Below the pieces are notes generated by a model, which was not told where the DNA came from, did not search any database, and worked only from the letters and a program-made list of their open reading frames with translations. This document shows positions 32,761 through 55,748 of a DNA stretch of 64,000 nt, piece after piece; positions within the stretch are counted from its first letter, which is position 1, and every line of letters starts with the position of its first letter. Origin of the DNA: Pelomonas sp. BJYL3 (GTDB lineage Bacteria; Pseudomonadota; Gammaproteobacteria; Burkholderiales; Burkholderiaceae_C); assembly GCF_027257975.1 (NCBI RefSeq), contig NZ_JANZKX010000004.1, positions 372,001 to 436,000 on the forward strand. Direction: 5' to 3'. The position numbers and the translations under genes were made by a program.

Positions 32761-32769
32761 GGTGATGAC

Positions 32770-34083
32770 ATGACTCTGCCCCCTTCTTTCCCGACCGGCC
32801 TGCATCGACGCGATTGGCTGCTGCGCAGCGCGGCCGCTCTGGGCGGCCTGGGCGGCCTGGCCCTGCCCGCGCGAGCGCAGAACGCGGCCGACGGCCGCCG
32901 CCCCCGTCTGGTGGTGGTGATGCTGCGCGGCGCCATCGACGGCCTCAACGTCGTCGTGCCCCATGGCGACCCAGCCTATGCGCGCGCCCGGCCGCGCCTG
33001 GCCATCGCCCGCCCTGGCGAGGACGGCGGCGCCCTTGCCCTGGACCGCCTCTTCGGCCTGCATCCGGCCGCCAGCCCGCTGATGGCCTACTGGCAGCGCG
33101 GCCTGCTGGGCTTCGTCCATGCCAGCGGCTCGCCCGACCCCACGCGCTCGCACTTCGATGCGCAGGACTATCTGGAATCCGGCACCCCCGGCCGCAAGGG
33201 CACGCCAGACGGCTGGATGAACCGCCTGCTGGCCGGCCTGCCCGGGCCGCACAGCGCCAGCCGCGCCCTGAGCCTGGGCAACACGCCGCCGCGCATCTTC
33301 GCCGGCAGCGCGCCCGTCGCCTTCCTGGGCACCGGGCCCAAGGCCCTGGATCCCAAGGCCATCGACCAAGCCCGGCTGCAGCGCGGCCTGGCCAAGCTCT
33401 ACGCCGGGCAGGATGCGCTCTCGCAGGACTACCGCGACGCCACCCAGTCCCGCCAGGACATGCGCCGCAGCCTCGCACAGGCCCGGCAGCGCCCGGGCGG
33501 CATGCAGGACGACGCCCCCAGCCGCGACCCCAGCGCCGACGCCGGCGCCCCGTCCGCGCGCAGCTTCGCGGCCGATGCCCGCCGCCTGGGCGAGCTGATC
33601 CGCGCGGACGCCCAGACCCAGCTGGCTTTCACCTCCGTGGGCGGCTGGGACACCCACGTCAACCAGGGCGGCGCCAGCGGCCAGCTGGCCAGCCGCCTGG
33701 GCGCTCTCTGTGAAGGCCTGGACGCCCTGGCCCAGGGCCTGGGCGACAGCCTGCAGGACACCGTGATCGTGGTGATGAGCGAATTCGGCCGCACCGTGCA
33801 CGAGAACGGCACCGGCGGCACCGACCACGGCCGCGGCAATGCCATGTGGTTGCTGGGCGGCCCCCTCCAGGGCGTTGCCGGCGGCCGCGTGCTGGGCGAA
33901 TGGCCGGGCCTGGAGGACCGCGCCCTGGCCGATGGTCGCGACCTCGCCATCAGCACCGATTTCCGCCACGTCCTGGCCCCGCTGCTGCAGGGCCATCTGG
34001 GACTGGACGACGAGTCCCTGGCCCGCGTATTCCCCGCGCTGCCGGCACGCAGCGCACCGGCCCTGAAGCTCTTGCGCAGCTGA
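32770..34083 (+). CDS. DUF1501 family protein, Tat-exported
   Basis: A 437-residue protein related to sulfatases/alkaline phosphatases in fold. A Tat signal (HRRDWLLRSAAALGG) precedes the mature protein. RLVVVMLRGAIDGLNVVVPHGD, SEFGRTVHENGTGGTDHGRGN and the TSVGGWDTH block are the usual conserved segments, with likely metal-binding His/Asp. Substrate unknown. It forms a two-gene operon with the DUF1800 protein. Confidence 0.88.
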   Translation: MTLPPSFPTGLHRRDWLLRSAAALGGLGGLALPARAQNAADGRRPRLVVVMLRGAIDGLNVVVPHGDPAYARARPRLAIARPGEDGGALALDRLFGLHPAASPLMAYWQRGLLGFVHASGSPDPTRSHFDAQDYLESGTPGRKGTPDGWMNRLLAGLPGPHSASRALSLGNTPPRIFAGSAPVAFLGTGPKALDPKAIDQARLQRGLAKLYAGQDALSQDYRDATQSRQDMRRSLAQARQRPGGMQDDAPSRDPSADAGAPSARSFAADARRLGELIRADAQTQLAFTSVGGWDTHVNQGGASGQLASRLGALCEGLDALAQGLGDSLQDTVIVVMSEFGRTVHENGTGGTDHGRGNAMWLLGGPLQGVAGGRVLGEWPGLEDRALADGRDLAISTDFRHVLAPLLQGHLGLDDESLARVFPALPARSAPALKLLRS

Positions 34084-34120
34084 ATCGGCCACAGTCATCG
34101 GGCAGACCCGCAAGCCGGGT

Positions 34121-34126
34121 TAGAAT
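34121..34126 (+). promoter_or_regulatory. candidate -10 element of tRNA-Arg
   Basis: TAGAAT lies 14 bases before the tRNA 5' end. No convincing -35 box is found at the expected distance, so this is a weak call. Confidence 0.35.
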
Positions 34127-34139
34127 CCGCGGCTGGCGT

Positions 34140-34214
34140 GCGACCGTGGTGAAGTGGATATCATGGAGCCCTCCGAAGGCTTCGTCGCAAGTTCGATTCT
34201 TGCCGGTCGCGCCA
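34140..34214 (+). tRNA. tRNA-Arg (anticodon CCG)
   Basis: A complete cloverleaf: acceptor GCGACCG pairs with CGGTCGC, D stem GTGA/TCAT, anticodon stem GAGCC/GGCTT with loop CTCCGAA (anticodon CCG at 34173-34175, reading CGG), T stem GCAAG/CTTGC with loop TTCGATT, discriminator G and an encoded CCA. Base composition and gene type change right after its 3' end, marking it as the left edge of the mobile island. Confidence 0.93.
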
Positions 34215-34749
34215 CTTCGATAGTGGGTCTGTTTTGCTGTTGTGACTTAGCCCATAAGTTGGCCGGGATGGCCAAGGTTAAGTTAATTTCACTCTGGGCC
34301 AAGCTTTGCTTAACTGCGGAGCTGGAGCGGTCAGGCCTCTGTTGCGGGCGCTGACGGATCGCTGGTCATCACCCCTGGATATCCGCAAGCAAGGCTGCTG
34401 GCCTGATAAGGCTATGCGTGAGCGCCAAAGCAGGCGCCGGCCGACTATTAGTCTTAGCCTAGAAGCGATCGGCCAAGGTGAGTCGCCCGACCGCAATCGC
34501 TGCACGGCTGCGCCAATCGCTACAGCGCTGTTGGCTTCAAGCTGCTTTGAGTCATTCGGAGGCTACTGCCCGAACGTAAGCAATCGTGCGCACCGACCGT
34601 TGAACGTTCCCCGCCCAGACGGCATCACCCCAGGAACCTGCGGCATGCCAGCAAGGCGGACGCCAGCCCAAAGGCAAGCCTCGTTTCCTTCTGCAGAACT
34701 GGGGAATGCGGCACTTAGGGCTAACATGCTGTGCAAGGAGTGAGGCTGA
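34215..34749. other. left end region of the Tn7-like element
   Basis: About 535 bases with no convincing gene, lower in GC than the chromosome to its left. It contains the candidate left-end motifs (34256-34316) 40-100 bases after the tRNA, and ends with the ribosome-binding site AAGGAG of the kinase-helicase gene. TGT trinucleotides that could start the transposon occur at 34230, 34238 and 34241. Confidence 0.55.
34256..34316 (+). repeat. left-end candidate TnsB-binding motifs
   Basis: Three sites: A AAGTTGGCCGG (34256-34266), B GTTAAGTTAATTTC (34277-34290), C AAGCTTTGCTTAACTG (34301-34316). Each has a counterpart, reverse-complemented, at the right end. TTAA-containing words are uncommon in this high-GC genome. 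That these bind TnsB is inference. Confidence 0.5.
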
Positions 34750-37700
34750 ATGAACAGCGATAGTCTGGGAGGACAAGTCCTGTGCGGGCGCTATAGGGTC
34801 CTGGAGACCCTGAAACCTGGCGGCATGGCACGGGTCTACAAGGTTGTCGACAACACGTCCAATCGGACCCTTGCGCTCAAAGTTCCCACCTCATCCTCAA
34901 ATGAAGCGTTGGCGGTCTTGGCATTCGACCGAGAACGAGAGGCCCTGGAGAACCTTCGGCATCCAAGCATTGTTGAGCTTGTCGAGGTTGGCGAGACTGA
35001 GCAGCAGGATCGCTATCTAGCCCTCGAATGGCTCCCGGGCTGCCTCAACGAGCAGCTGACGGCAGGGAGTCGTTGGACCTGGGAAGACTTCTACGCGGAC
35101 GTGGGAGCGCCACTCGTCTCCGCGCTAGCCGCTGCGCACAGACGTGACATAGCGCATCGTGACATCAAGCCGGAGAACCTGCGGTTCGATGATTTCGGAC
35201 GCCTCAAGGTAACTGACTTTGGAATCGCGAAGGCACGGTCGGGCATTCAACTCGGGCAGACATTCAAATCTTCCGGCACGCCTCCGTACACACCGCCGGA
35301 GGAGGATGACGGAACCAATTCATACGCTCGCGACACCTTCTCGTGGGCAACGGTGGCACTTGCCTGCCTGTCCGGCAGAACCTTCGCGAATCTTGGAGAG
35401 GTCAAGGACAGCCTTGCCGCGCTACCGCAAGACGCGGCGCCTATCTCACTGTTGGAAAGCTGCCTCTCGCTATCCCCCAGGGACAGACCTGCGAACGGCA
35501 CCGACTTACAGGTTCAAGTCGAAGCATTTCATCGGAAATACGTAGACCGCAGACCACTCCAAATCACGGTCCAACTCAGCACTCAGGCTCTGTCCGAGCT
35601 TGCGCAGAAGCTCGGTGACCGCCGTCCCGAGGATTGCGTCAGTTTTCTGCAGGCCGACCTCAGCACGTCGCTTCACGGCTACATCGTCAACGAGCAGGAC
35701 CGGTCCGTCCGCTTTATTGGCGCGACCTTGGACATTACCTGCAAGGCAGTCGACAACAGTGAGCTCTTCCGGGTGATGAGTGCGCGCGTACTAGAGCTCG
35801 AGCGTGCGGAGAACGAACGCAGACAAGCATCGGAGCTGCACGCAATCACATTGAATGTTTTGGCCCCCTTGGCGCCAGCGCGCGGAGCAGCGAATCAGCG
35901 CGCCTTCTGGCTTCGCCTAGAGACCGAAGAGGCACATCGTCAGCGAGAAATCGACAAAGCTGAACGAGAGCGGTGGTTCGACTGCTGGGCAGCGGTGTTG
36001 CGCGAGAAGGACCGCATCCAGCGTACGCGCAAGCTCAACATTCCCTTTGTGACCATGCGCGCCAGAAACGAGAAGGCTGTGGCGGTTTGCGAAGGCGAGC
36101 TCTCTGAGGACCGACTCCCTGACCGCCTAGTATTCCGACCAGCGTCCGGCAGGCCCTTCCTGTTTGAAGTGCTGGACGTTTTTGGCGACGAGATAACGCT
36201 GAAGCCGCTGAATCTGGATGTCGCCGAGCTTCCAACGGGCTCAGGGGTCCTCGAATCAAATGAATATGGCCAAAGCCAGCCCGTGGCAAGGCAACGGATT
36301 GCTCTGGAGACAGTCCGACGAGAACGGGCCGCCTCCCCCGCCCTGAAGTCGCTGGTTTGCGCGCCCGAGAACGCACGGCTCCCAGAACCAGGCGGTATAC
36401 CGCCGGGCTACGCCAAGGACCTAAATGGGGAGAAGCGAGAACTCATCGAGCGTGCGTTGGGACTAAATAGCATCCTGATGGTTGAGGGGCCGCCGGGCAC
36501 TGGAAAGACCACGTTCATTGCGGAGCTCATCGCCCTGTACCTATACGTGTTTCCTACTGCTCGGGTGTTGCTTTCATCGCAGACCCATACGGCCCTTGAC
36601 CATGTGCTTATCAAGCTCATCGAAAAGGACCTCGGCCATGACGTTGTTCGCATCCATGGGGAACGAATTGAGAAGATTGACAGCCTCGCACGTCCCCTCA
36701 TCCTCGACCTGAAGACTAGGTCATGGATCGAGCGGGTCGAGGAGCGCGCTCGCAAGTACGTCAAGGACAGGGCCGAGCAGCTCGGACTCGACACCACGGA
36801 AGTCGAAGTGGTCGTTCTTGGAGAGCAGCGACACATCCTCCTAGAGGAGCTGCGGTCCTATGAGAGAGAACTTGCCGCAGTCCTCAGTGACGGCCCGGCC
36901 GTATCTGTCGCTGAAGGCGAGGCCAGCGACGAAGAGGCCGTCAACAAGACATCCACGCTGATAGACGAGCGCGAGCATCTGGGCGACCAAATCAAGGCCA
37001 TCAAGCGACGCCTGACCAAGGTCGAAGGCAAACTGAGAGCGTTAGGGGACTTCGGCGAAGCGATTGCCTCATCGTCCGACGAAATGAGCAGGGAGTGGAT
37101 GGATGCCTTGAGCAAGTCGCACGTCGACGGGGCCGAGTTCTTGAAGAGCCAGGTCGGACTCCAGCTTGAATGGTTCGCGCGCTTAGGCGTGTCGCGCGAC
37201 TTCCATGGTGCGGTACTTGGCGAGGCTCGCGTGGTTGCGGGGACCTGCGTGGGACTCGCGAGCGTGCCGGCTTTCAGCGAACTGGAGTTCGATCTCTGCA
37301 TCGTTGACGAAGTTTCAAAAGCCACCCCCACTGAGACGCTCATACCGATGAGCAGAAGCAAACGCTGGGTGCTAGTGGGCGATCCACAGCAGCTTCCGCC
37401 CTATTCCGAGCTGGACAGGAAGAAGGTGCTCGACCAGCGCTATCCAATTGAGCAGGCGGAGGCGACGCTCCTCGATATCCTGACACCACGGCTGCCTGAC
37501 GCATGCAAAGCACAGCTCACAGAGCAACGCCGCATGGTCACAGGCATCGGCAATCTGGTAAGCGACGTCTTCTACGACAGCAAGCTCGTCACCATCCGAA
37601 AGGCCGAAGACCGAGACACGGTCACGGCGAAGCTGCATCCACTGGCGGTCGAGTGGCACACCACATCGGCCATTGCCAAGCGGAGAGAGCAGGAAATGAC

Positions 37701-38154
37701 CGGCCGGACGTATCGGAACGCCTGCGAGGCCGTCATAGTCCACCAGGTTTTGGAGCGGCTCAATGCAGGCAATCGCGGGCGCAAGCCTCTGAATGTCGCG
37801 GTGATTGCGGGCTACTCGGCCCAAGTCAACGAACTCGGGCAGCGCATTCAAGGTGCAGCGAAGCCTCTTCAGAACTTGGAGATTGTCATTAACACCGTTG
37901 ATGCGTTTCAAGGCAAGGACGCCGACATCTGCATCTACAGCGTGACGAGGTCCAACGGTGAGCACAGGCTCGGATTCCAGCGAGAAGTTCAGCGGCTAAA
38001 CGTCGCGCTATCGCGAGGACGGGACTCGCTCATCATCGTCGGCGACGACATGTTCTGCCGAGGCGTCACCTCAAAGAATCCTTTCCTCAAGGTGCTCGCG
38101 CACATTGATAACCACCCTGACGAATGCGGGTTCGTTCGCTATGACCGAATTTGA
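34750..38154 (+). CDS. Ser/Thr protein kinase - superfamily 1 helicase fusion
   Basis: A 1134-residue two-enzyme protein. Residues about 14-270 form a Hanks-type kinase with all key residues: VAIK-type lysine (LALKVP, Lys44), HRDIKPEN (136-143), DFG (156-158) and an activation loop SSGTPPYTPPE. A middle region (about 270-560) of unknown fold is charged and partly coiled. The C-terminal half is a UPF1/DNA2-like helicase: GPPGTGKT (580-587), a DEVS variant of DEAD (about 852), GDPQQLPP (about 877) and the C-terminal VDAFQGKDADI and NVALSRGRDSLIIVGD motifs. A coiled-coil insert lies between motif I and II. The next gene overlaps by 14 bases. AAGGAG lies 9 bases upstream of the start. No known system with exactly this fusion comes to mind. 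Confidence 0.85.
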   Translation: MNSDSLGGQVLCGRYRVLETLKPGGMARVYKVVDNTSNRTLALKVPTSSSNEALAVLAFDREREALENLRHPSIVELVEVGETEQQDRYLALEWLPGCLNEQLTAGSRWTWEDFYADVGAPLVSALAAAHRRDIAHRDIKPENLRFDDFGRLKVTDFGIAKARSGIQLGQTFKSSGTPPYTPPEEDDGTNSYARDTFSWATVALACLSGRTFANLGEVKDSLAALPQDAAPISLLESCLSLSPRDRPANGTDLQVQVEAFHRKYVDRRPLQITVQLSTQALSELAQKLGDRRPEDCVSFLQADLSTSLHGYIVNEQDRSVRFIGATLDITCKAVDNSELFRVMSARVLELERAENERRQASELHAITLNVLAPLAPARGAANQRAFWLRLETEEAHRQREIDKAERERWFDCWAAVLREKDRIQRTRKLNIPFVTMRARNEKAVAVCEGELSEDRLPDRLVFRPASGRPFLFEVLDVFGDEITLKPLNLDVAELPTGSGVLESNEYGQSQPVARQRIALETVRRERAASPALKSLVCAPENARLPEPGGIPPGYAKDLNGEKRELIERALGLNSILMVEGPPGTGKTTFIAELIALYLYVFPTARVLLSSQTHTALDHVLIKLIEKDLGHDVVRIHGERIEKIDSLARPLILDLKTRSWIERVEERARKYVKDRAEQLGLDTTEVEVVVLGEQRHILLEELRSYERELAAVLSDGPAVSVAEGEASDEEAVNKTSTLIDEREHLGDQIKAIKRRLTKVEGKLRALGDFGEAIASSSDEMSREWMDALSKSHVDGAEFLKSQVGLQLEWFARLGVSRDFHGAVLGEARVVAGTCVGLASVPAFSELEFDLCIVDEVSKATPTETLIPMSRSKRWVLVGDPQQLPPYSELDRKKVLDQRYPIEQAEATLLDILTPRLPDACKAQLTEQRRMVTGIGNLVSDVFYDSKLVTIRKAEDRDTVTAKLHPLAVEWHTTSAIAKRREQEMTGRTYRNACEAVIVHQVLERLNAGNRGRKPLNVAVIAGYSAQVNELGQRIQGAAKPLQNLEIVINTVDAFQGKDADICIYSVTRSNGEHRLGFQREVQRLNVALSRGRDSLIIVGDDMFCRGVTSKNPFLKVLAHIDNHPDECGFVRYDRI

Positions 38155-39607
38155 TGCGGTAGCCGAGCATCACCAGACGATGGATGGGATGTCGCTGGTC
38201 GACTACCTCCCTATCGCCCTGCCCATCTACCTGTTGCAGATTGAGGCGCTAGTCGCGGAGAAACGCGAACTCATGCCGGTGGAGGAGTTCGTTCTTAAAG
38301 CCATCAGCATGGGCGTTCGCTCAGGCCCAGACGTTCTGGGGACCTTGGGGCTTGGCTCCGGATACGGCGAGAAGGTTCTTCAGTCCCTAGCTGATGACGA
38401 GTACATCGCTCAGAAGCCGGAGTTGGTGATTCGTCCCAAAGGGGTCAACGTACTGTCCGAAGCCGGCGAGCGCAGGATTTATGAGAAGGTGCTTACCGTA
38501 GCTTGGAATCCGGTGACGCAGCAGGTCATGCGCGACAAGCACCTGTTGAAGAAGTCCGGTGAGCTGAAGCTTGCCAGAGTGGTGCGGGTCGTTCCGCCAA
38601 GCACAAAACTTCCCCCCCTTATAGAGCTACCGCTGGAGCGCCTTCCCACGTGGCAGCTCGAAAAGGGTGAGCAGGTAATCCGGTTCTTGGAGGTTCAACG
38701 CCGGTCGCTTCTTTACGTACCCGCAGTGCTGCTCATCTACGGTCGGGGCAAGGGCGAGCCTCTCGCACGCGTCGCAATTGACGGGGTCATAGACTCAAAC
38801 AGCAGCGTCGCAATTGCTCGGCATGAAATCCTGCCACGCCTGGGCGTCGACGGGCTGTTTGCGAGGCGCATGGGCGCGACGGCTGTCGAACCCCGTGTCA
38901 AGCCGCTCGGCGTACTGCCTGGGAACGAATCTCTCGCCGACCTTCTGAGGCTCAAAAGCACGCTACAGGTTGGTATCTCCGGGCTGGAACGCAAAGATTC
39001 CCCCGACGCGGCCGTTAAGCTTGATGCGAAGAAGGCTGAACTGGCGACAGTGCAGCTAAAGCTTACGCAGATTCCTGTGCGCGCACTGCTGCCCTTCGAG
39101 GTTCCCCAGCTTGTCGACGTGGCGCTTCAAAAAGCCAAGAACGACATCGTCATCACAACGACGCTGCCTATCGGTGAGCGGCTCACGTCGCTGCGGCTTC
39201 TGCTCCTTGACCAGGTGCTGCGTAAAGGCGTCAAGGTGCGAATCCTCATCTCTGACCGCCCGACCGAGGACGAGTTTGCAGTGAACGAAGGGCCGGGTCC
39301 CCTTCTTCGGACACTCAACGACATGATGACGGTGCACACCAACCTCGACGTGTCATTCCTACGGGACACGGACCGGGTTGTGTTTGAGGTACGGATAGAC
39401 GACACCCTTGTCGGCGTCTCGAACGAGCCTCCCCTTGGCGCCCGGTCTCGGGACCCTCTTGCGCGAGTCTTTTCTGGGTATCAGCTATCCGGCACAAAGC
39501 CCGTGCGAGCCTACGTAGAAAGCCATATGTCTGCGCAGCACCTCGCCGTGGTCGGAAAGATTAGGTTGCCTGCGCCAGTTCGCAAGGCATCCGGAAGAGC
39601 CAAGTAG
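38141..39607 (+). CDS. winged-helix protein with degenerate PLD-like C-terminal domain
   Basis: A 488-residue protein of unrecognised family, coupled to the kinase-helicase gene (ATG at 38141 lies 14 bases inside it). Residues about 40-115 look like a winged helix (LGSGYGEKVLQSLADDEYIAQ). The C-terminal third (QLVDVALQKAKNDIVITTTL, KGVKVRILIS, FEVRIDDTLVGVSNEPPLG) follows the order of a phospholipase D-like fold, but the His-x-Lys catalytic motif appears as QHLAVVG, so nuclease activity is doubtful. The role is probably nucleic-acid recognition or a partner for the helicase. The fold assignment is from pattern only. Confidence 0.6.
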   Translation: MTEFDAVAEHHQTMDGMSLVDYLPIALPIYLLQIEALVAEKRELMPVEEFVLKAISMGVRSGPDVLGTLGLGSGYGEKVLQSLADDEYIAQKPELVIRPKGVNVLSEAGERRIYEKVLTVAWNPVTQQVMRDKHLLKKSGELKLARVVRVVPPSTKLPPLIELPLERLPTWQLEKGEQVIRFLEVQRRSLLYVPAVLLIYGRGKGEPLARVAIDGVIDSNSSVAIARHEILPRLGVDGLFARRMGATAVEPRVKPLGVLPGNESLADLLRLKSTLQVGISGLERKDSPDAAVKLDAKKAELATVQLKLTQIPVRALLPFEVPQLVDVALQKAKNDIVITTTLPIGERLTSLRLLLLDQVLRKGVKVRILISDRPTEDEFAVNEGPGPLLRTLNDMMTVHTNLDVSFLRDTDRVVFEVRIDDTLVGVSNEPPLGARSRDPLARVFSGYQLSGTKPVRAYVESHMSAQHLAVVGKIRLPAPVRKASGRAK

Positions 39608-39659: not shown

Positions 39660-41369
39660 CTAGAGGAACTGGCAGCCATCGCGCTGGGGTGTCACGATCG
39701 TCGTGCGACGGATAGCGCGCGTGACCGCGACCCGCAGTGCCAGCCGCGATTGCGCGATGCGCCTGGCATCGGCGTTCGCCGCCACGATGCGCCCAGAGAA
39801 GATGCCCTCATAGATGACGACCTCGTCGAACTCCTTCCCCTTGGCCTTGTGGATGGTCATCAAGTGCAGCCCACGCCATTCCTTCTGCGCGGCGACGAAG
39901 TGCTCTTGAAGCAGGGCGTCGCCAAGCGCTGCCTCTGCACCGGCATAGTCGCCCTGCGCCCTCCACATCTCGCTGAGCGCCGTGCGCAACGCGGAACCCC
40001 TGTGCAACAGCCGGAGGAAACGAGCATCGTCAGCCACCCGGGCTACCTGGGGCGCGATGGACGAGGAGATCAGCCCTCGCATCGCAGCCCAGTCTTCCTC
40101 GGGGTTTCCTGTGAGCCTCAGATCTGCGCGTTCGGCCGCGATCCTCTGGCACTCATTGACGACAAGCTCCCTGTTCTTGCCGCGGATCTTTCCCGTCGAC
40201 ATGTAATTGCCGATCGCGCCTGCGAGGTCCATCTCGGCCTGCGCAGGAGCCTTATTGCCACCGCGGCCACGGATATGAGTGTGCAGCGTGGCGACCAACC
40301 GTGACGCCAGCGCCGCGGCAGGGCCGCCTGCCAGCAGCACAGCAATGACATTTGCAGCCAAAGACGGCGATTCCGCGTCCATCGCCACGTCGTGCCGAAG
40401 TGCGGGCAGGCCATCCAGGTCCGAGGACAGGTACTGCGAGAACTGCAGCATGAATGCCCTTGACGGCACGAGGACGACCACCGAAGTGTTTGGCTGGTCG
40501 CGCACACGCCGGAGAGCGGCCAGCACCTCCGTCTTCGCCCGGAAATGCGGGCTCTGGTTTCTGCGGAAGCCGTAGCGCACGATCTTCACGTGCGTGTACT
40601 CCTTGCCGCGGTTCCGATCCGTCAACAAATCGTTGCCGAAGGCGGTGATGTCCGTCCCGTTGCTTCGATGGTTCTCGCCAGAGAAATCGAAACTCCCAGG
40701 CTGGAACGCCTCGACGAATTCACCCAGGCGGCGGGGATCGGCACCCCGGAACTCGTAGATACGTTGCTCGGGGTCGCCGAGTGCGATTAGGCGGCTATGT
40801 CGACCCAACTCGCGGATCAGGGCCCACTCGTCGGCATTGGTGTCCTGGAATTCGTCGAGGATCACCATGGGATAGGCATCGCAGTAGATGTTCGCCAACC
40901 GGACGCTGCGCCGGAAGAGTTGCGCAACCAACCGGGCGAACAGGTCGAAATGCAGCCGCCCTTCCTCTTCGAACAGGCGAAGCATCTCCTGGTCTCGGGC
41001 GCTTGCGTCCACGTCAGCAAAGTGGGCCGCGGCCTCCGGCGGAGGCAGGAGGGTAATCGCCTTCACAGCGTTCAACAGATAGCCGTGGCTGCGCAGGATG
41101 CTCCATGCGAACCCGTGATACGTGTTGATCTCAAGGTGCTTGAGCTCCTCCGGAGAGATGAGCTCCGCCGCCTTCTCGAGGATGCGCGCGACCGTCGGCC
41201 TCGCAAAGCTCAGGAACAGCACCTTCTGGCCCGGCTTCAGCGCTCCGCCGGCAACCTGCTGCTGGGCCTTCACGAGCGCCACGTGGGTCTTGCCAGCCCC
41301 CGGGCCGGCGAGGGCCAACGCGTGTCCGGGGCAGGCCAGGAAGGCAAGCTTCTGCGAACTCCAGGCCAT
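39660..41369 (-). CDS. gajB: UvrD-like helicase, Gabija GajB-like
   Basis: A 569-residue superfamily 1A helicase, longer than the roughly 500 residues of the original GajB. Motifs: GPGAGKTHV (Walker A), ILDEFQDTN (Walker B), ALGDPEQRIYEFRGAD, a C-terminal MTIHKAKGKEFDEV and VAVTRAIRRT. It follows the OLD nuclease gene with a gap of 5 bases; in Gabija the helicase senses DNA ends and nucleotide depletion with GajA. The ATG at 41369 begins MAWSSQKLAFL, placing the Walker A near residue 26; an upstream frame start would overlap gajA by 64 bases. Confidence 0.75.
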   Translation of the reverse strand: MAWSSQKLAFLACPGHALALAGPGAGKTHVALVKAQQQVAGGALKPGQKVLFLSFARPTVARILEKAAELISPEELKHLEINTYHGFAWSILRSHGYLLNAVKAITLLPPPEAAAHFADVDASARDQEMLRLFEEEGRLHFDLFARLVAQLFRRSVRLANIYCDAYPMVILDEFQDTNADEWALIRELGRHSRLIALGDPEQRIYEFRGADPRRLGEFVEAFQPGSFDFSGENHRSNGTDITAFGNDLLTDRNRGKEYTHVKIVRYGFRRNQSPHFRAKTEVLAALRRVRDQPNTSVVVLVPSRAFMLQFSQYLSSDLDGLPALRHDVAMDAESPSLAANVIAVLLAGGPAAALASRLVATLHTHIRGRGGNKAPAQAEMDLAGAIGNYMSTGKIRGKNRELVVNECQRIAAERADLRLTGNPEEDWAAMRGLISSSIAPQVARVADDARFLRLLHRGSALRTALSEMWRAQGDYAGAEAALGDALLQEHFVAAQKEWRGLHLMTIHKAKGKEFDEVVIYEGIFSGRIVAANADARRIAQSRLALRVAVTRAIRRTTIVTPQRDGCQFL

Positions 41370-41374
41370 GGGCT

Positions 41375-43153
41375 TCAGGCCGCGGTGGGTTCGACTGGAG
41401 GCGCAGGCTCGATGACCTGGAATATGCCGTGCAGGCATTGGGCAATGTATTCAGGCATCTCCTGCCAGCCCTGGCAAGACGCCAGCAGGTCGGCCGCTTG
41501 CCCACTGCCTTTGCCCCAGGCGAAGTATTGCGAGAGCGCGTTCCTCAGGGTGGCCAGATCGGACTCTGCCCGCGGTACCACAGGCAACAGGTGCTGCGGC
41601 CAGTCGCCCTCCGCCACCACACCCAGCGCGTAACGCCGGATCGCGGTCTCGTTGGTCCCCTGCAGCACCAGCGACTCAAATCCTTTCATCTTTGATTCGT
41701 ACGGATGGTCGACGGCGGCACGAATGAGGGCGAGTTGTGCTTCGTCCTGCTTGTCGAACACCGCAAAGACGATCTTGCCTAGGGCCCTGAAGAAGTGACC
41801 GAGCGGTGCAACTTGGGAGTCCGTCTTGGCATCGATGACCGCCACGCCGAGCGCCTCCAGCGATTTGAAATACTGTGGATCGGTCTTGCTGAGCGTGCGT
41901 GCGGCCGCCGGCAGCGCGTCGAACTCCGTCCGCCCTTCGACGATAAGGACATACTTGGCGAGCAATGCCTCGCAGAAGCGCGCCCGGAACTCCGCCTTGT
42001 AAGCCTTCGGCTTGATCGTTGGCGGCAGGCTGGTGGAGACGGAAGTCAGCACGCCGCTCGCGCGCTTGAGCACCTTGATCTGGGCTGGCTCGAACTCCTC
42101 GAGCACGTACGGCGAGTGCGACGTGAAGAGGGCCTGGGCTGACTTCTCGCGCACGCTGTTGACGATGCGCTTCTGCGTGTGCGGAGGCAGCGCCGTCTCG
42201 GGCTCCTCCATGGCGAAGATGACGTTCTGCTTGAGCTCGGCAATGATGGACAGCAACGCGAGCACCAGCGTATTGATGGTGCCCGTTCCTTGGTGCTGGT
42301 ACGGCGCCGCGTAGGTGCTGCCGTCCGCACGCCTGGCGCCCGTTCCCATGAAGACCGTCAGAGTTCGACGCAGGGTCTCACGGGTGAGATCCGAGACGCG
42401 CATGTGCGGATCCTCCGCCCAGTCAGACGGGACAAACTTCTTGATCGAGGCATGCACTGCGGCTAGCAGCGTGGTGACGCCGAGTTCAGGTTTGTCGGCG
42501 ACCGGCAGGACGCGCAGCGAAGCCAGCAGTTCCTCCCACATCTTGAGGCGCGAGTCCTGAAGGCGCAGGATCACGTCCAGCAGCGACCCGCGCTCCAGGC
42601 TGAGCGCGCGCGAACCGGTGCGCACCGTTCGCAGGTACAGGAAGCCGCACTTGCGCTTATCGGAGGCACGGAACGTTTGGTACTCGCCTGCTCCGATTGG
42701 GACGGGCAGCGCGAAGAACGTATTGCCCAGGAAATCGTCTTCCTCCGCGTCGTAGGCGCCACGGAAGAAGACGCGCAGCGCTGGCCGAACCCCGGCGGCG
42801 TCGGTGCCCTCGACCGGCGGGCCGGCTAGCAGCGTCTTCGCATTCGTGTCCCACCATTCCAGGTGCTCGCGGAAGTGCCGGAGTTGCTCCTCGTTGAGGT
42901 CGGCGACGATGACCTCGACTCCCAGAAGGATCGGCTGCCCTTCAGCGCTGAGGTACTGGCCCGCGTAGAAGTCATGCTCGTCGACGACCGGGCGACGGGA
43001 GAGCCGCTCTGGGCCCAGTACGAGGTCAATCGCCTCAAGCAGCGTGGACTTGCCTGCGTTGTTGTCGCCAACGAGCACGCTGTGTCCATCGAAGTGAACG
43101 GTGCCCTGCGCGATCCCTCGGAAGTTCGCGACCCTGACCTGAACAATCTTCAT
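41375..43153 (-). CDS. gajA: OLD-family ATPase/TOPRIM nuclease, Gabija GajA-like
   Basis: A 592-residue ABC-type ATPase fused to a TOPRIM nuclease, close to the roughly 580 residues of GajA. Walker A GDNNAGKST (29-37), Walker B IFAMEEPETALPP, then the TOPRIM motifs VLIVEGRTEFDALP and FAVFDKQDE carrying the acidic metal ligands. A UvrD-like helicase follows directly, which is what separates Gabija-like class 2 OLD proteins from solitary OLDs. Expected role: sequence-specific DNA nicking and cleavage released when nucleotides fall during phage infection. Cargo of the transposon. Confidence 0.78.
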   Translation of the reverse strand: MKIVQVRVANFRGIAQGTVHFDGHSVLVGDNNAGKSTLLEAIDLVLGPERLSRRPVVDEHDFYAGQYLSAEGQPILLGVEVIVADLNEEQLRHFREHLEWWDTNAKTLLAGPPVEGTDAAGVRPALRVFFRGAYDAEEDDFLGNTFFALPVPIGAGEYQTFRASDKRKCGFLYLRTVRTGSRALSLERGSLLDVILRLQDSRLKMWEELLASLRVLPVADKPELGVTTLLAAVHASIKKFVPSDWAEDPHMRVSDLTRETLRRTLTVFMGTGARRADGSTYAAPYQHQGTGTINTLVLALLSIIAELKQNVIFAMEEPETALPPHTQKRIVNSVREKSAQALFTSHSPYVLEEFEPAQIKVLKRASGVLTSVSTSLPPTIKPKAYKAEFRARFCEALLAKYVLIVEGRTEFDALPAAARTLSKTDPQYFKSLEALGVAVIDAKTDSQVAPLGHFFRALGKIVFAVFDKQDEAQLALIRAAVDHPYESKMKGFESLVLQGTNETAIRRYALGVVAEGDWPQHLLPVVPRAESDLATLRNALSQYFAWGKGSGQAADLLASCQGWQEMPEYIAQCLHGIFQVIEPAPPVEPTAA

Positions 43154-43556: not shown

Positions 43557-44498
43557 CTAGTACAGCTCCGGCTCACCCATGAACCGGCTCCGACATTTCC
43601 CCGCCTTCAGCACTTCCAAGATCGGCACCCCCGCCGCCGCGGCGAACTTGATCACGGCTCCAAGGCTGATGACTTGGCGCTCCCACTCTGGCCGCCTAGA
43701 TCGACTGAGGTAGACGGAGTTGGTCCGCAGTTGGCGGACCACATCCATCTGGAACTCAAGGCCCGTCCGCAACTTGGCCAGCTCATAGGCCCACTCAAGA
43801 TCCGGCCAGCGCGGTTCATTGCCAAGCGCCGGCATGTCGCGCACCAGGTCGGCAAACAGCTCAGCGTGATGGGCATCCCAGGCAGCTGAAGGGGTCTGCC
43901 CCTCTTGGTGCTCGTCCGCGGGAGTCGTTGCGCGCATGAGAGGGCTCCCACACTGCCGGCACCCCACTGGGGGAGCCCAGCCGTCGGGTCCACGCTGCTC
44001 TGTACTGCCGCATCGTGGGCACGCGCCTTCAAGCAAGGTGCCGTGCCTGTGGCAACGCTCATGAAAGCAGAAATTCCAGACCAATCGGTGATAGGTCGGG
44101 CGCCCGGCCTCAATGTCCTCCTGCCAACACGCCGAGCACCAGACAGGGGACTTCCTGACGTACCGCCGCAGAGCAATCGTGTGGTCACCCCACGGCATCC
44201 CCAGCACCGCGACCGAAGGAACCCCCGTCAGCCGGGCCAGGCGAAGGCCCGTCAGCCCTGGGGCGGTGCCCCAGTACGGTTGCAGGCTGCCGTCACTCTT
44301 ATAGCGTTCCCCTTCCATGCGGGGCAGCGACCGCACGTAGTCCGACAACTCCCGCTCGGTGACCCCGTGGACAGCGGCCAAGCGGTTGATATAGCCGTTG
44401 AGCGACTCGCAGTCGGACGTGCCCACGCCAATCGGCTCGAGGCTGGACAGGATGACCCGCGAAGGAATCGGGGGATGCAGCGACTCACGCATGTGCAC
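43557..44498 (-). CDS. tniQ: TniQ family target-site protein
   Basis: A 313-residue TniQ/TnsD-type protein. The conserved head (SLNGYINRLA, WGTAPGLTGLRLARLTG) is followed by paired zinc sites: CSACW and CFHERC, then CPRC and CRQC. TniQ proteins bind target DNA and recruit TnsC. It is short compared with TnsD of Tn7 (about 500 residues), but a C-terminal helical part of about 100 residues remains. Insertion beside tRNA-Arg suggests that this protein recognises the tRNA gene. Its start overlaps the tnsC stop by 14 bases. Confidence 0.85.
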   Translation of the reverse strand: MHMRESLHPPIPSRVILSSLEPIGVGTSDCESLNGYINRLAAVHGVTERELSDYVRSLPRMEGERYKSDGSLQPYWGTAPGLTGLRLARLTGVPSVAVLGMPWGDHTIALRRYVRKSPVWCSACWQEDIEAGRPTYHRLVWNFCFHERCHRHGTLLEGACPRCGSTEQRGPDGWAPPVGCRQCGSPLMRATTPADEHQEGQTPSAAWDAHHAELFADLVRDMPALGNEPRWPDLEWAYELAKLRTGLEFQMDVVRQLRTNSVYLSRSRRPEWERQVISLGAVIKFAAAAGVPILEVLKAGKCRSRFMGEPELY

Positions 44499-45636
44499 CT
44501 CCGCTCAGGCCACCAGCCACAGGAGGAACGGAATCGCGCGTCGGGCTTCGAACACCGACCTTGCCAGGCCTTCCTCCCTTGCCGGACCCTTCCTTCGGCG
44601 TCGTCGATGAGCTGCCAGAGGCCGGAGCGCCCAGCACCATGACTTCGATGCGGCGATCCGTGTCCGGTGAGGCCAGATCTTCGCCATCATGGATGTCCTT
44701 GACGATGCGCGTAATGGCTCGGCCCGACAGGCGCGTTCGCCGGAAGTCCTCGATCGTCAGGTGGGACCGCACCTCCATGCGTGCACGCGACATGGCGCGT
44801 GCACACCAATCCTTCAAGATGCCGATGCATCCCACCGAGCCGGCATAGAAGAAGTCGAACTCGGCCTCGACATTCGGAAAGACCTCGGCGCCGCTGCGCG
44901 AGAGAAAGGTCTGCACACAGCTGGCAAACGCATTCCTGTCGTCGACTTCACCATGCCTGTAGCGCCCGAAGTGAACCACCTCCGTGCGGCGGGCCAGTTG
45001 AGCGGAGACCTGCAGGTGCACAAGCAGCTGGTAGGTGCCAACAAGCACGAGCTTGACCCCACAGCTCTGGGCCACGGACTTGAGCACGTCGTACTGGTCC
45101 CCAATGCCGCCAGCGCGCGCGCCCATGAGGATGTGCTGCGCCTCATCGATGAACCAGTACTTCAACCGACGCCGCTTCATTTCCCGGCTCAGCCGCAGGC
45201 GCAGCGTGGCCGCGGTGAGCGACTCGCCGACACGCTTGTGCTGCTGCTCCCGCGCCTCGGGCGTGGGCCGCCGGTCGTCCACGAAGGGATCGCCGAGCGC
45301 GAGCAGGGCGTCGTGGTAGAGCACCTTCCAGTCGAAAGCACGAAAGCCGCTGGCTACGGCCGTGGTCGATATGAAAGGAACGAACTCGCGGTCGCTCATC
45401 ATCCGTGACTGCTCAGCCTGCAGGAGGTCCTTCATCAGCCGAGCAGCCAGCGTCGACTTGCCCACACCGGTGGGTCCGACCAGGCAGATAAGCTCGTAGC
45501 CCACACCATGGTTGAGGAGGAACTTCAGCTGCTCCAGGGCTTCGTGCTGCTGGTCATGCTTGATCACGAGCGAGGCGAAGCTGCTTGCGGAATCGGCGGC
45601 CGTAGCCGCCCCAGTCAAGTTGAGGCGGTGGCTCAT
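44485..45636 (-). CDS. tnsC: TnsC/TniB AAA+ ATPase
   Basis: A 383-residue ATPase that links the target protein to the transposase. Walker A GPTGVGKST (54-62) and Walker B YWFIDEAQHIL are clear, and the C-terminal part has the winged-helix-like stretch of TnsC proteins followed by a Ser/Gly/Thr-rich tail. The ATG shares one base with the tnsAB stop (TGATG), so the operon is translationally coupled. Confidence 0.87.
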   Translation of the reverse strand: MSHRLNLTGAATAADSASSFASLVIKHDQQHEALEQLKFLLNHGVGYELICLVGPTGVGKSTLAARLMKDLLQAEQSRMMSDREFVPFISTTAVASGFRAFDWKVLYHDALLALGDPFVDDRRPTPEAREQQHKRVGESLTAATLRLRLSREMKRRRLKYWFIDEAQHILMGARAGGIGDQYDVLKSVAQSCGVKLVLVGTYQLLVHLQVSAQLARRTEVVHFGRYRHGEVDDRNAFASCVQTFLSRSGAEVFPNVEAEFDFFYAGSVGCIGILKDWCARAMSRARMEVRSHLTIEDFRRTRLSGRAITRIVKDIHDGEDLASPDTDRRIEVMVLGAPASGSSSTTPKEGSGKGGRPGKVGVRSPTRDSVPPVAGGLSGGAHA

Positions 45637-48380
45637 CAGTAGGCCTCCAGCGTTTGGATCTTCATGGACGGCTTGGCGGCCTCGACGGTGGGCGCATAGG
45701 CGTCAGCGGCGGTCACGTCGGAGCTGCCCAGAAGGACCGTGCCTGCAGGTTCGTCCCAGTCCTCCCAGTCGGCCGGGTAGACATTGGCCTCCATCAAACG
45801 CTTGCGCTCCTCTGCGGCCTGGCGGCGTCGAAGCAGCATGAGTTGCTCAGCGTTGACCTCCTTGAGGAACTTGATGAGCGCAGCATCGGTCAGGCGGGTC
45901 TTCTCGACAGCAGAACGGCGGCGGCGCCACTCCGTGCTCGCCTCCAGCAGCTCCTTTTCGGTGAGACCCCATACGGTTTTGGCGTGACGGGTGCAGGTCA
46001 GTCGAACCCATTCACGGTCGATGTAGGCGAAGGCCACACCCATGTTGCCGGGGTCATAGCGGACCTCGACATCTTTGCCAAAGTGAGCCTGCAGCTGCGC
46101 AGCGTTGTAGTACAGGTAGTGCACCTTGACGCCGTCTGCCTGCACCCGAGCTGTGCCCTTCCTCGGCGACGGGCAGGTGGCGAGGATGAAGTGCCGGTCG
46201 TAGGGGATGACGTGCATCGGACGGTGACCAGACTGGGCCACGGACGTCTCGAAGCACGCACGCGGGCTCATCAACAGCTCGCGATGCTGAAGGTTGTCGT
46301 AGACCTGAAAGAGGTACTTTTCGAGCAAGTCGCACAACTCAGGGAACGTCCAGACTGCGAAATTGTCGGGATCGACTGCATTGGTCATCTGGCGCACGTT
46401 CTTGCGCAGCTGCGTGTTGCCCTTCAGTACGTGAATAAGGTTCGTGTTCAGCGTGCCGAAGATGCGCTCCATCTGTGACCCATAGCGGGGCTTGGCAGCT
46501 GGCCTGTAAATGAGGGTGACGTGGTACCGGGCGCACAGGGTCTGGGTCCAAACACACTGGAATTCCTTGCCCCCATCGAGCACCAGGCTCTCAGGCAGGC
46601 GCCCCCACCGTCGCACACAGTCCCGAATCACCGCCATGACCGAGCGATAGCTCGGCGCCTCGTAGCTTAGCGTCACTGCAAGGGTCCTTCGGCTGAAGTG
46701 ATCTATAGCCAGCGTCGCCCAGACCCTCCCTGCCTTCTCTGGGCTGTTGGAGAAGATGGTCTCCAGATCGATGAGCGTGTGGTCTATGTGCGCGCGCTGC
46801 CATGCCCTGTCCGGCGCCATAGCCAGGGCCAGATCTGTCGACTCAACGCGCGGCTCCAAGGCATAGGCAAGTTTGTCACCGCCGCGCGCCCTGGCGACCT
46901 GGTAGGCCGGCATCCTCTTCACAAACTTGTTGAACCAGGGGTAGCTTGGCGTGGGCAGGCCTCGCTCTTCACACCGGTCGCGCAGAAAGCCCCACCCAAT
47001 CTTGACCCGGACGTTGTCCGGGTTCAGTAGGTGCTCGTTCGCGACGTCAAGGGCCAGCTGGAGCACCGCCTTCAACAAGCGCTTCTGACGATTCCCTGCT
47101 TGCGAAGTCTTAGGCAGCAGGCCGATGAAGCCGTTCCCGTGCTTCCGCTGTGCAGTCCTGTAGTCCGACAGATACCGACGCAGGGTGCGGTGTTTCGGAT
47201 TGACGCGGCGGGCCTGCAGGTAAGGCCGAATCTGTTCCATCCGGCGGTTAGCCTCTTCCAGCTCCGTTCGGCGTGCTCTGCGCAGGATGGCGTCGATAGG
47301 GCTCTCGACACCTTTGTCCGCCTCTGCCGTACCGAGAGCCTCGAGCTGGCCAGCATGGGCCAGCCCCTGCAGCGTAGCCAAGGGCATCGTCTGGGTACGC
47401 CCCTCACACTCAATCACCGCCTGGCTAGCGCCGACGGTGAGGATCTTCCACGTCTGACCGTCCCACCGCAGCTGCTCTTGCGCGGCGAGTCGGACCAGGT
47501 TCACCGGCGGCCCTTGCCGCCGGTCCTTCGACAGCGCACAAGCCAGGTAGGCGTGCAGCGTTGCCATGTCCCTGTAGAGCCAGCAGGCTTCGGCGTCAAC
47601 AATTCGGCAAGCCTGCCAATCGATCGCCACGTCCCCGCAGCCGATGGCCCGGTAGATGTGGTCCAGCGTGACCGTCGCTCCACATTTGTCGAGGACTGAT
47701 CGGATGGTGGCGCGCGCCAAGCAGCCGAGAATGTTGGTGATCGCCACCAATGCGACGTCGTACCCAGGCAGGTTCAGATCTGCGCGCAGGTACTCGCCCA
47801 GGAACAGTTGGTTGCTCAGCACAAGGGCGTCAAAGTTGGCCTCCGTCCAAACCACGTGTGACATGTCCAACTCTTGAGCCGCCCGCACCGCTGGCGGGCA
47901 GGTCCAGCGCCCCTCCTGGAGCACGAATAGTTCGGGGTCATCGATTGCCCGCTTCTCGACGGCCGCGAGTCGCTTCCCTTCGATCAACTCGATCCCGCTC
48001 TTGTTGATCGAGAGGAAGTCCGGAGTTTGCAAATAGCTCCGCATCCGACCGCCGATTCGGTAGGTCAGTTTGATTGGCGGGGGCTGATCGACATACAGCA
48101 AAACATCAGGGTCCCGCTCCAACGCGAGGATGATGGGCAACTCAAGCGTTGCGCTTTCGAAGCCGATGGTGACCCCTACCTTCTTGCTTGGGTACCGGCC
48201 GCACATGCTCCGCGGCGTGCTCCGTACCTGCCGTGATGGAGCCTCGAGGGCCGCCTTGATGTAGGCCCGACACTCGGGCGAGACGTTGAGATGGTCCAGG
48301 TGAGCCCAGATCTCTGCCACCAGGCCTGGCCTGAAGCTCTGACCCTCGCTGCCCTCGGCGCTGGAGTGAACGATATTCAT
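45636..48380 (-). CDS. tnsAB: TnsA-TnsB fusion transposase
   Basis: A 914-residue natural fusion. Residues 1 to about 220 are TnsA-like: the active-site pattern FESATLE (Glu75/80), TPDF (Asp121) and IEGK (Lys136) matches the TnsA endonuclease, with a helical C-terminal part. The remainder is TnsB-like with an rve fold and DDE triad: Asp534 (HIDHT), Asp603 (LDGGKEF), Glu639 (QMERIFG), then a Mu-type C-terminal barrel and TnsC-binding tail. One chain would cut both strands at the ends (cut-and-paste). TnsA-TnsB fusions are known from some Tn7-like elements, including certain CRISPR-associated ones; no cas gene occurs here. Confidence 0.87.
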   Translation of the reverse strand: MNIVHSSAEGSEGQSFRPGLVAEIWAHLDHLNVSPECRAYIKAALEAPSRQVRSTPRSMCGRYPSKKVGVTIGFESATLELPIILALERDPDVLLYVDQPPPIKLTYRIGGRMRSYLQTPDFLSINKSGIELIEGKRLAAVEKRAIDDPELFVLQEGRWTCPPAVRAAQELDMSHVVWTEANFDALVLSNQLFLGEYLRADLNLPGYDVALVAITNILGCLARATIRSVLDKCGATVTLDHIYRAIGCGDVAIDWQACRIVDAEACWLYRDMATLHAYLACALSKDRRQGPPVNLVRLAAQEQLRWDGQTWKILTVGASQAVIECEGRTQTMPLATLQGLAHAGQLEALGTAEADKGVESPIDAILRRARRTELEEANRRMEQIRPYLQARRVNPKHRTLRRYLSDYRTAQRKHGNGFIGLLPKTSQAGNRQKRLLKAVLQLALDVANEHLLNPDNVRVKIGWGFLRDRCEERGLPTPSYPWFNKFVKRMPAYQVARARGGDKLAYALEPRVESTDLALAMAPDRAWQRAHIDHTLIDLETIFSNSPEKAGRVWATLAIDHFSRRTLAVTLSYEAPSYRSVMAVIRDCVRRWGRLPESLVLDGGKEFQCVWTQTLCARYHVTLIYRPAAKPRYGSQMERIFGTLNTNLIHVLKGNTQLRKNVRQMTNAVDPDNFAVWTFPELCDLLEKYLFQVYDNLQHRELLMSPRACFETSVAQSGHRPMHVIPYDRHFILATCPSPRKGTARVQADGVKVHYLYYNAAQLQAHFGKDVEVRYDPGNMGVAFAYIDREWVRLTCTRHAKTVWGLTEKELLEASTEWRRRRSAVEKTRLTDAALIKFLKEVNAEQLMLLRRRQAAEERKRLMEANVYPADWEDWDEPAGTVLLGSSDVTAADAYAPTVEAAKPSMKIQTLEAY

Positions 48381-48702
48381 GATTGCCTTTCTTCCGCGTT
48401 GCTATGCCCGTTGTCGGGCGTGATTGCGCAAAGCGGGCGGCAGCACCGCGCCCTCAGCTTGGCCGCCGTGCGTTGCCCAAGGGCAACGGCGTAAGGCCAA
48501 CTGATGGCAACTGGAAAGGACAGCGGTAGGAAAGGCATCCCCGCGGGGCCCATGGATACAGGCCCCGCTTGCGTGAAGCGAGGTGGGGGGCTAGAGTCTG
48601 GGTTACCGGTTCAGCAATCGGCGGCAGACTCAGGGGCCCTTGCACGAGTAACGATCGTGTTTGGGCTCTCTGCCTTTCTGGGGTCTGTCAGCGGCGCTGC
48701 TA

Positions 48703-49005
48703 CTACACCTTGCGCTCCTTTCTCTGGATCACGTGCTGATCCAGGGAATCCAGGTAGTCGACCAAGTCACTGGTGCGAGCGAAGAGACCCTGCCGGTGCG
48801 GCAGGCGGATGACCTTCAGCCCCAACTGGCCGCGCTCCACGCTGCGCTCCAGCGCTTCCGCTGTGCGGAAGCCAAGGAACTGCACGAGCTGGTCGCGGTT
48901 CAACAGTGGGCCGTAGACCTTGACGAGCTGACGGCACACCACGTCGCGGGCGGATTCAATTTCCACCACTGCTGGGCTCGCTTCTGGCTGCGTCTTTTCG
49001 TCCAT
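48703..49005 (-). CDS. small helix-turn-helix-like protein
   Basis: A 100-residue protein, likely DNA-binding: LVQFLGFRTAEALERSVERG-type helix-turn-helix pattern as seen in excisionase/MerR-like regulators. It is encoded just upstream of tnsAB on the same strand and inside the candidate right end, so it may regulate the transposition operon. The ATG at 49005 starts MDEKTQPEAS; an upstream ATG at 49080 would add 25 basic residues. Confidence 0.55.
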   Translation of the reverse strand: MDEKTQPEASPAVVEIESARDVVCRQLVKVYGPLLNRDQLVQFLGFRTAEALERSVERGQLGLKVIRLPHRQGLFARTSDLVDYLDSLDQHVIQRKERKV

Positions 49006-49147
49006 TCCAGCAGTCTGCTGACCGGCGCGCAGACGAGCAAGAAGAATTCGACAGCGCAATCTAGCTGAGGCAATGCGCACCCCGTAGTTGCACGGTGCAG
49101 AGTTTCATTGCGTGCAGTTTCAACGTACGAAACTAAACCCCTTCTGT

Positions 49148-49231
49148 CGGTTAAGCTGAGCTTCCGGTCTGCCAAAAATGGCAGAAACTAAACGTCAAAT
49201 ATTGCCTCTCAGGCCTCTTTCCGGCGAACTT
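49148..49231 (-). repeat. right-end candidate TnsB-binding motifs
   Basis: Reverse-complement partners of the left-end motifs: A CCGGCGAACTT (49221-49231), B GAAACTAAAC (49184-49193, with a second copy at 49129-49138) and C CGGTTAAGCTGAGCTT (49148-49163). Order from outside in is the same as at the left end. A palindrome TGCCA-aaaa-TGGCA (49170-49183) lies between B and C. Confidence 0.5.
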
Positions 49232-49293
49232 AAAGGTCCCTCCCATCGCGTTGCTGCGGGGCCACACATCGGCACTGGTCGAAACACGTCACC

Positions 49294-49770: not shown

Positions 49771-50026
49771 GCCGCCGTCCGTGCCGGCACGACATGGGCA
49801 GTCCACCAATGGCTCAATGATGTCTAGGGAATCTGGGGCGCTTCGACACGCCGAGCCAGCGACGAAGTTTGCAACCATAAGCACTGTTAGCACAGCGCAT
49901 TGAGCATCAGATCAATCTCAGTGGAACGCTGCGTCAGGACAGGTGTCTCAAGCAGCTCGGCTCGGGCGACGGGTGAGCAATAGACTCGCTACTGTCTAGG
50001 CCACTTCACCCGGATTGGGCAATGCC
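49771..50026. other. intergenic region upstream of the KAP NTPase gene
   Basis: 256 bases with no gene. It probably carries the promoter for the KAP NTPase/partner operon. No terminator or clear box is seen. Confidence 0.4.
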
Positions 50027-52813: not shown

Positions 52814-52857
52814 CTCGTTTCGATTCGATATGACGAATAAATTCCCATGGGAGGAAC

Positions 52858-53694: not shown

Positions 53695-53754
53695 GCATTT
53701 CGAATGTATAAGCTCCTCTACAGGTAAGGGAAAGTCAATTAGAAAGGTCCGCTC

Positions 53755-55386: not shown

Positions 55387-55483
55387 TGCGAAAGATGGAT
55401 TCTTGCGGTGGCCAAGCAGCAGCGCCCGCTGGCACCTAGCCAGCACGCCCCTGCAGCGCAACAGCAACAAGCAGCGGCGTGAA

Positions 55484-55738: not shown

Positions 55739-55748
55739 GCCTAGCAGT

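Follow-up and report, generated by a model that had tools for sequence, protein, structure and literature searches.

The mkoA–mkoB pair and its products

The gene pair mkoA–mkoB lies in a 64,000-nucleotide stretch of Pelomonas sp. BJYL3 DNA (the window), which covers positions 372001–436000 of contig NZ_JANZKX010000004.1 (C23) in a host genome of 5.24 Mb (GCF_027257975.1, G000). mkoA (34750..38154, + strand) encodes a 1134-residue protein in which a Ser/Thr (Hanks) kinase is fused to a superfamily 1 (SF1) UPF1-like helicase, as assigned by PADLOC, Pfam and AlphaFold 2 (AF2)/Foldseek. mkoB (38141..39607, + strand), named by PADLOC, encodes a 488-residue protein with a predicted winged helix, a helical linker and a phospholipase D (PLD)-like domain without the HKD motif (HxKx4D). 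Together they correspond to Mokosh, a defence system for which Millman et al. 2022 is reportedly the founding paper. We regard the assignment to Mokosh as nearly certain. As judged from sequence, the pair represents a branch of Mokosh type I in which MkoB is without HKD and the kinase is kept, that is, a variant of a described system.

Residues 10–1126 of MkoA matched the PADLOC model PDLC03920 (MkoA) with an E value of 5.5e-194. Of the two MkoA models in PADLOC, one short (1112) and one long (1607), the shorter fits the window protein. The kinase domain (residues 15–214; 34792..35391, + strand) matched Pfam PF00069 (E 1.1e-26). Its catalytic residues were intact, with K44, E62, H136-R137-D138, K140, N143 and D156-F157-G158 all present. 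The helicase (AAA_11/AAA_12, residues 558–1099; 36421..38046, + strand) matched Pfam at E values of 6.1e-37 and 1.1e-37, and its Walker A (GPPGTGKT) and Walker B (DE) motifs were intact. The AF2 model of MkoA had a mean predicted local distance difference test score (pLDDT) of 80. Its best Foldseek matches were SETX, UPF1, DNA2 and IGHMBP2, with PknA-type kinases lower in the list. MkoA is also assigned to the SF1 UPF1 helicases in an excerpt of PMC10925250. A preliminary description, made from the letters of this DNA, had proposed a kinase–helicase fusion with intact K44, HRD, DFG and Walker motifs, and Pfam, the residue table and Foldseek agree with it. Neither MkoA nor MkoB matched a NERD domain in Pfam at E 0.01.

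The MkoA profile gave nine further matches in the host genome, eight in kinase regions and one in a helicase region. Of 14 control genomes, 13 also gave matches. A match to this profile is not specific unless it spans the full length and the partner gene is present.

The mkoB frame can start with TTG at 38105, giving 500 residues, or with ATG at 38141, giving 488. Residues 20–376 of MkoB matched PADLOC PDLC03922 (E 5e-25; profile positions 3–366 of 610). The 14-base overlap of mkoA and mkoB (38141..38154, + strand), noted in the preliminary description, was confirmed by the open reading frame (ORF) coordinates. The locus L127, from a different genus of the same family, has an identical 14-base overlap (bases 9162–9175). 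As both frames are conserved between the window and L127, the overlap is, by this comparison, beyond chance.

The preliminary description had seen in the 488-residue protein no recognised family and in the pair a candidate undescribed module that matched no system it could name. It had proposed to judge this by a PADLOC hit to a described system, and PADLOC returned one, naming MkoA and MkoB of Mokosh. MkoB matched no Pfam or NCBIfam model at E 0.01, PLD models in Pfam included, which would suit a defence system of an undescribed kind. Both genes are named in PADLOC-DB of 2023, so that this idea was rejected at the family level and is now highly improbable.

The winged-helix and PLD-like nature of MkoB, likewise proposed earlier, received modest support at the level of fold. 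A profile of 11 MkoB proteins, searched against PDB chains, matched MarR-type winged helices from E 0.0042; a chain called 'CAP REPEAT' ranked above these rows (1.1e-5) and had no stretch that passed. The MarR-like region covers approximately residues 46–97 (38276..38431, + strand), as placed by this search and by the helices and strands of the AF2 model. Besides the winged helix, the model has long helices and, at the C terminus, an alpha/beta unit. The PLD-like domain (about residues 318–427; 39092..39421, + strand) was delimited by AF2 secondary structure and Foldseek. Human PLD1/PLD2 were the best Foldseek matches (E 7.8e-4), and four matches reached E ≤0.001 with this model of pLDDT 65. 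Further matches were NucT, FAM83 and Zucchini, and also TrmB-type regulators. Foldseek against viral proteins gave nothing at E 0.001. With modest confidence, the predicted fold of MkoB is PLD-like.

The HKD site of MkoB and its history

HKD chemistry requires the catalytic His. In the window MkoB, alignments and a residue check placed HxKx4D at residues 413–420 (39377..39400, + strand). V413 and F415 stand where the catalytic His and Lys belong, and D420 is kept. We aligned 31 MkoB partners drawn from sequence searches, a set that contains no experimentally tested MkoB: the window, 16 plasmid loci, nine genome-contig loci, four whole-genome loci and one viral contig. HxKx4D was present in 19 of the 31 and absent in 12. 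The 12 were the window, L127, six alphaproteobacterial plasmid loci (L023, L024, L025, L026, L027 and L032), L037, L118, L061 and L042. MkoB of L061 and L042 (Clostridia) is too distant to judge. The HKD places read A, N, D in L037 (Lentzea) and V, K, D in L118 (M. marinum pRAW). In the other eight, which are members of one MkoA clade, the residues at the His place were V, V, N, D, G, G, E and S, and the Lys was absent in all. In the window, L127, L024 and L027, the 15 residues that precede the Asp contain no His. HKD was kept in L128 and L129 of the host's own family, so both forms occur within the family. These alignments indicated that the window MkoB has very probably lost HKD. With this active site lost, a PLD-type nuclease activity of MkoB is unlikely.

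An ordinary Mokosh would be one alternative. Here MkoB would still be a nuclease, using other residues of its divergent PLD-like domain, and would degrade phage transcripts. The MkoB profile match and the PLD-like fold of the model are consistent with this, as is D420, with the same column kept in L127. In four alphaproteobacterial rows, a His also directly precedes the HKD place. In excerpts of earlier papers, Mokosh is called a helicase plus PLD nuclease (PMC11672841) and is said to degrade viral transcripts (PMC11291487). The substituted His place and missing Lys in all eight clade members, together with the lack of a nearby His in four of them, speak against a nuclease, and we consider this alternative improbable.

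The window and L127 were compared for signs of selection. MkoA was 68% identical between them and MkoB 66%. The ratio of nonsynonymous to synonymous substitution rates (dN/dS) was about 0.09 for MkoA and 0.14 for MkoB; both are rough values, as dS was 2.0–2.6, near saturation. The helicase was the best conserved part of MkoA, with 71% identity and a dN/dS of about 0.05 at a dS beyond saturation. The PLD-like part of MkoB was 72% identical and the dead-site block (41 residues) 76%, vs 67–68% in the rest of MkoB. The last 43 residues drift, with 46% identity. By these measures, the PLD-like domain with its dead site is under purifying selection. A decaying, non-functional Mokosh locus that has lost its nuclease could explain the missing HKD and the drifting last 43 residues. 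Both frames are open, however, with the low dN/dS values given above, and the same dead site occurs in another genus at 66–68% identity, there beside another defence system. Decay is thus very unlikely.

A tree of 31 MkoA proteins placed the window, L127, L039 and the six alphaproteobacterial rows in one clade (support 100/99). L039 is a truncated MkoA for which no MkoB was found. The HKD label needs three changes on this tree, where loss of the site is seen in at least three places. In a full-length MkoB tree (27 rows, HKD columns included), the same eight rows grouped at 95/99. In the two MkoB trees, the branch of the window and L127 MkoB was very long (3.1 and 2.5 changes per column).

These analyses cover slightly different sets. 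L061 and L042 were excluded from a second MkoA tree, from the MkoB trees and from the phosphatase count given below. MkoB of L033 is split over two frames with HKD in the second; it was excluded from the MkoB trees and included in the 19. L030 is absent from the full-length MkoB tree and present in an N-terminal one. L123 stops at the contig edge before mkoB, and L041, L099 and L100 were covered by an ORF scan and stand outside the later analyses. The mycobacterial MkoB proteins (L118:7724-9577 and L030:7408-9177) have a C-terminal S1 RNA-binding domain, by Pfam for L030 and by record annotation for L118; that of L118 has Val at the catalytic His place.

The motifs of MkoA were followed in 33 rows. 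The kinase residues K, E, HRD, N and D were all present in 31. The two other rows use frames that start later, L022 without K and E and L033 without K, E and HRD, and the readable rest was kept. Seven rows had DYG for DFG, two had DFA and one had DFS. Asn took the place of the HRDxK Lys in six rows, namely L061 and five of the alphaproteobacterial ones. The Walker A sequence was GPPGTGKT in 31 rows (GPPGAGKT in L022, GPPGTSKT in L024), and DE was kept in 32, the exception being the truncated L039. Within this MkoA-found set, the HKD site is, on the aligned residues, the part that gets lost.

PP2C genes of relatives and a possible kinase output

In all six alphaproteobacterial plasmid loci analysed, a gene annotated in the records as a PP2C phosphatase overlaps the end of mkoB. 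Two of the six genes were scanned with Pfam and both matched PP2C. All six proteins showed NED, ADGxGGH, GDSR, SDG and GG[ED]DN, which we take to be PP2C motifs. L023, L025 and L032 add a DUF3800 gene to the locus. When the Microvirga PP2C was used in tblastn, the next five plasmid matches were 41–42% identical and Mokosh-linked. Some Streptomyces PP2Cs that have no Mokosh link were at least as near to it as the Aminobacter PP2C (35%). In all, 121 records matched, so this is a general PP2C family.

A PP2C profile was built from the six relatives. It found none in the 26 other loci first scanned and none in L128 and L129. The sequence after mkoB, 62 bases in L022 and 328 in L042, was too short for a PP2C call. 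PP2C was present in 6 of 10 HKD-less loci with a readable flank and in none of the 18 HKD-intact loci for which 2.2 kb or more of downstream sequence was available (Fisher p 5.6e-4). Because the six loci belong to one clade, this count may reflect one event and is no statistical association. For the window itself, PP2C as a partner was rejected, as the profile found none in L127 or in the whole window (ORFs of at least 60 residues, E 0.01). Two histories would fit: loss of an ancestral PP2C in the window lineage, or a later gain in the alphaproteobacterial branch.

These observations can be read with the helicase as the effector. MkoA would strip or block phage RNA or DNA on its own, MkoB would do no more than steer it through the winged helix, and the kinase would tune it. 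The UPF1/SETX-like fold, the near-constant GPPGTGKT and DE motifs and the position of the helicase as the best conserved part of MkoA favour such a role. The core kinase residues are equally constant in the same set, however, and the PP2C that accompanies the pair in relatives suggests phospho-signalling. We therefore think a helicase effector unlikely.

The best explanation, to which we give a probability of about 0.5, is a Mokosh type I branch with a pseudo-PLD MkoB and the kinase as output. The UPF1-like helicase of MkoA would engage invading nucleic acid, probably RNA because of its kinship with UPF1/SETX. MkoB would be a nucleic-acid-reading (winged-helix) and scaffolding subunit. Helicase engagement would switch the kinase on, and the output would be phosphorylation of host or phage proteins. 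In the alphaproteobacterial relatives, the kinase would be held inactive before infection by the PP2C encoded in the same run of genes. Some other brake would be needed in the window, which has no PP2C gene. For the window pair alone, a kinase output is possible and somewhat doubtful. More speculative still is a scenario for the whole branch, in which phosphorylation replaced the nuclease, the pseudo-PLD MkoB ties the helicase sensor to a toxic kinase, and PP2C was recruited as an antidote in some lineages.

Several points weigh against the best explanation. DYG replaces DFG in all six alphaproteobacterial kinases, and together with Asn at HRDxK (five of six) it may lower their activity. The constancy of the kinase is partly built into the sample; the search for relatives used similarity to full-length MkoA, so that kinase-less forms would be under-sampled. 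The phosphatase argument stops short of the window, because the window and L127 are without PP2C. Concerning MkoB, L023, L025, L026 and L032 have a His immediately ahead of the HKD place and lack the Lys. Confidence in the MkoB model is low (pLDDT 65, predicted template modelling score 0.39), and its Foldseek template modelling scores are small. A tree of the N-terminal part of MkoB (about the first 300 residues, 28 rows) places the window pair elsewhere with weak support. On that part, a single clade was neither rejected nor shown by the approximately unbiased test (p 0.116), and this part of the family may have lost HKD on two occasions. The phosphorylation and defence roles of the window pair are themselves predictions.

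In the usual view of Mokosh, the helicase finds foreign transcripts, the PLD nuclease cuts them and the kinase is an extra. If the kinase is the output, this nucleic-acid-cutting view fails for the present branch, and PP2C is a third component missed by the two-gene description. In the sample, the core kinase residues were always kept and HKD repeatedly lost, so these natural HKD-free systems let the role of the Mokosh kinase be tested. The idea of the kinase as a switch, put forward in the preliminary description, is more worth testing because HKD was lost in MkoB with the kinase kept. The worth of the finding lies in this natural loss and in the PP2C gene of the relatives.

Genomic setting, distribution and comparison with known systems

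By gene content, mkoAB is a Mokosh type I locus beside a tRNA-Arg and grouped with Gabija and Tn7-like transposition genes. The tRNA-Arg(ccg) (34140..34214, + strand; ARAGORN) marks the left edge of the island, where the G+C content falls from about 0.75 (32001–34000) to 0.60 (34001–36000). Downstream lie gajB (39660..41438, − strand; PADLOC E 2.7e-229) and gajA (41375..43153, − strand; PADLOC E 1.7e-262), bearing out the Gabija-like neighbour of the preliminary description. Both Gabija genes, for the OLD-like nuclease GajA and the UvrD-like helicase GajB, are present and directly adjoin mkoAB; they differ from it in being a gene pair of their own on the opposite strand. As to the transposon setting, Pfam confirmed transposition genes of Tn7 type. 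A tniQ gene of a Tn7-like set (43557..44498, − strand; TniQ, E 1.5e-13) is followed by a tnsC/tniB-like ATPase gene (44485..45636, − strand; TniB, E 1.1e-11) and a large transposase gene (45636..48380, − strand; Mu-transpos_C, with rve slightly under the Pfam cut-off). Read by eye, the N-terminal part of the transposase may be a fused TnsA.

A search for transposon ends, with 34210–34760 against 48381–64000, gave no inverted pair at 18 of 20 matching bases; the best pairs had 17 of 20 and lay in two scattered places. No repeat was found in 34100–34800. A tRNA-linked TnsAB element is known for the CRISPR-associated transposon (CAST) type I-D, to which I-B2 is likened, in an excerpt of PMC10293859.

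Three other proteins of the window were observed. A KAP-family P-loop NTPase (932 residues; 50015–52813, + strand) has partial similarity to QatA/PifA. The translated sequence of a T5orf172-domain protein (53755–55386, + strand) shows, by eye, a repeated segment in its C-terminal part. An RHS-repeat protein (1613 residues; 58299–63140, − strand) has a polymorphic-toxin-like architecture, and its C-terminal stretch resembles the ParB N-terminal domain, under the Pfam cut-off.

MkoA relatives were rare in the genome draws made: 2 of 399 genomes for the order, 1 of 369 for the class, 2 of 299 for the phylum, 1 of 397 for the order of genome G864 and 4 of 250 for the family. The centre genome, either that of the window or G864, is itself counted in every draw. 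The draws overlap, and the cut-off was 1e-60 for searches with the protein and 1e-100 for those with the profile. Among 72,556 plasmid records, 24 matched MkoA at E 1e-40, and 11 of the 24 were typed conjugative. Of these matches 16 were analysed; those left out include H2, H13–H15, H18, H21 (species or organism name same as used), H23 and H24. No MkoA relative was found in 50,697 phage records at E 1e-30. Viral contigs gave one MkoA–MkoB locus, L115, with HKD intact.

In a plain count, all four Mokosh loci of the host family lie near other PADLOC-named genes. The window has Gabija. L127 has Olokun OloAB and a PifA-like protein, L128 has HEC-05 and PDC-S39 candidates, and L129 has type IV restriction and a cyclase of the cyclic-oligonucleotide-based anti-phage signalling system (CBASS) with a phospholipase effector.

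Among known systems, Mokosh type I is described in the excerpt of PMC11672841 as having separate genes for an RNA helicase and a PLD nuclease, and an extra Ser/Thr kinase domain; type II has a single gene for helicase and PLD nuclease. An excerpt of a 2026 review lists Mokosh among systems with an unknown mechanism (PMC12926258). Literature searches on Mokosh with a phosphatase and on antiphage kinase/PP2C, whose coverage left out most subscription papers and preprints, gave no PP2C-bearing or HKD-less Mokosh in the excerpts available.

The window pair is like type I in its kinase and COG1112/UPF1-type helicase, with a nearly full-length PADLOC match of MkoA, and in the order mkoA then mkoB, with about three quarters of MkoB matching the PADLOC model. 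It differs in an MkoB without the HKD His and Lys. It also differs in having no NERD domain at E 0.01; NERD as a type I hallmark rests on one review table, seen in an excerpt (PMC10952713). MkoB of the window and L127 matched the MkoB model in one stretch and did not match MkoC, whereas the HKD-intact MkoB of L128 and L129 matched it in two stretches and also matched MkoC. The helicase of the window MkoA resembles MkoC of type II (E 4.4e-31); the window differs from type II in having two genes and no helicase–PLD fusion.

FAM83 proteins share with MkoB a PLD-like fold without PLD activity (Foldseek E 2.5e-2 to the window MkoB model). According to an excerpt of PMC6008594, these pseudo-PLDs anchor CK1. 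They are vertebrate proteins, and kinase anchoring by MkoB is an analogy only. The kinase–kinase–phosphatase (KKP) system consists of two kinases and a phosphatase, and its PP2C, PfpC, is an antitoxin that restrains the toxic defence kinases until a phage protein inhibits PfpC (PMC11341870, excerpt). KKP differs from the window pair in its two kinases and in its PP2C, which the window does not have. The likeness lies in the alphaproteobacterial relatives only, where Ser/Thr kinase and PP2C genes stand together as they do in KKP.

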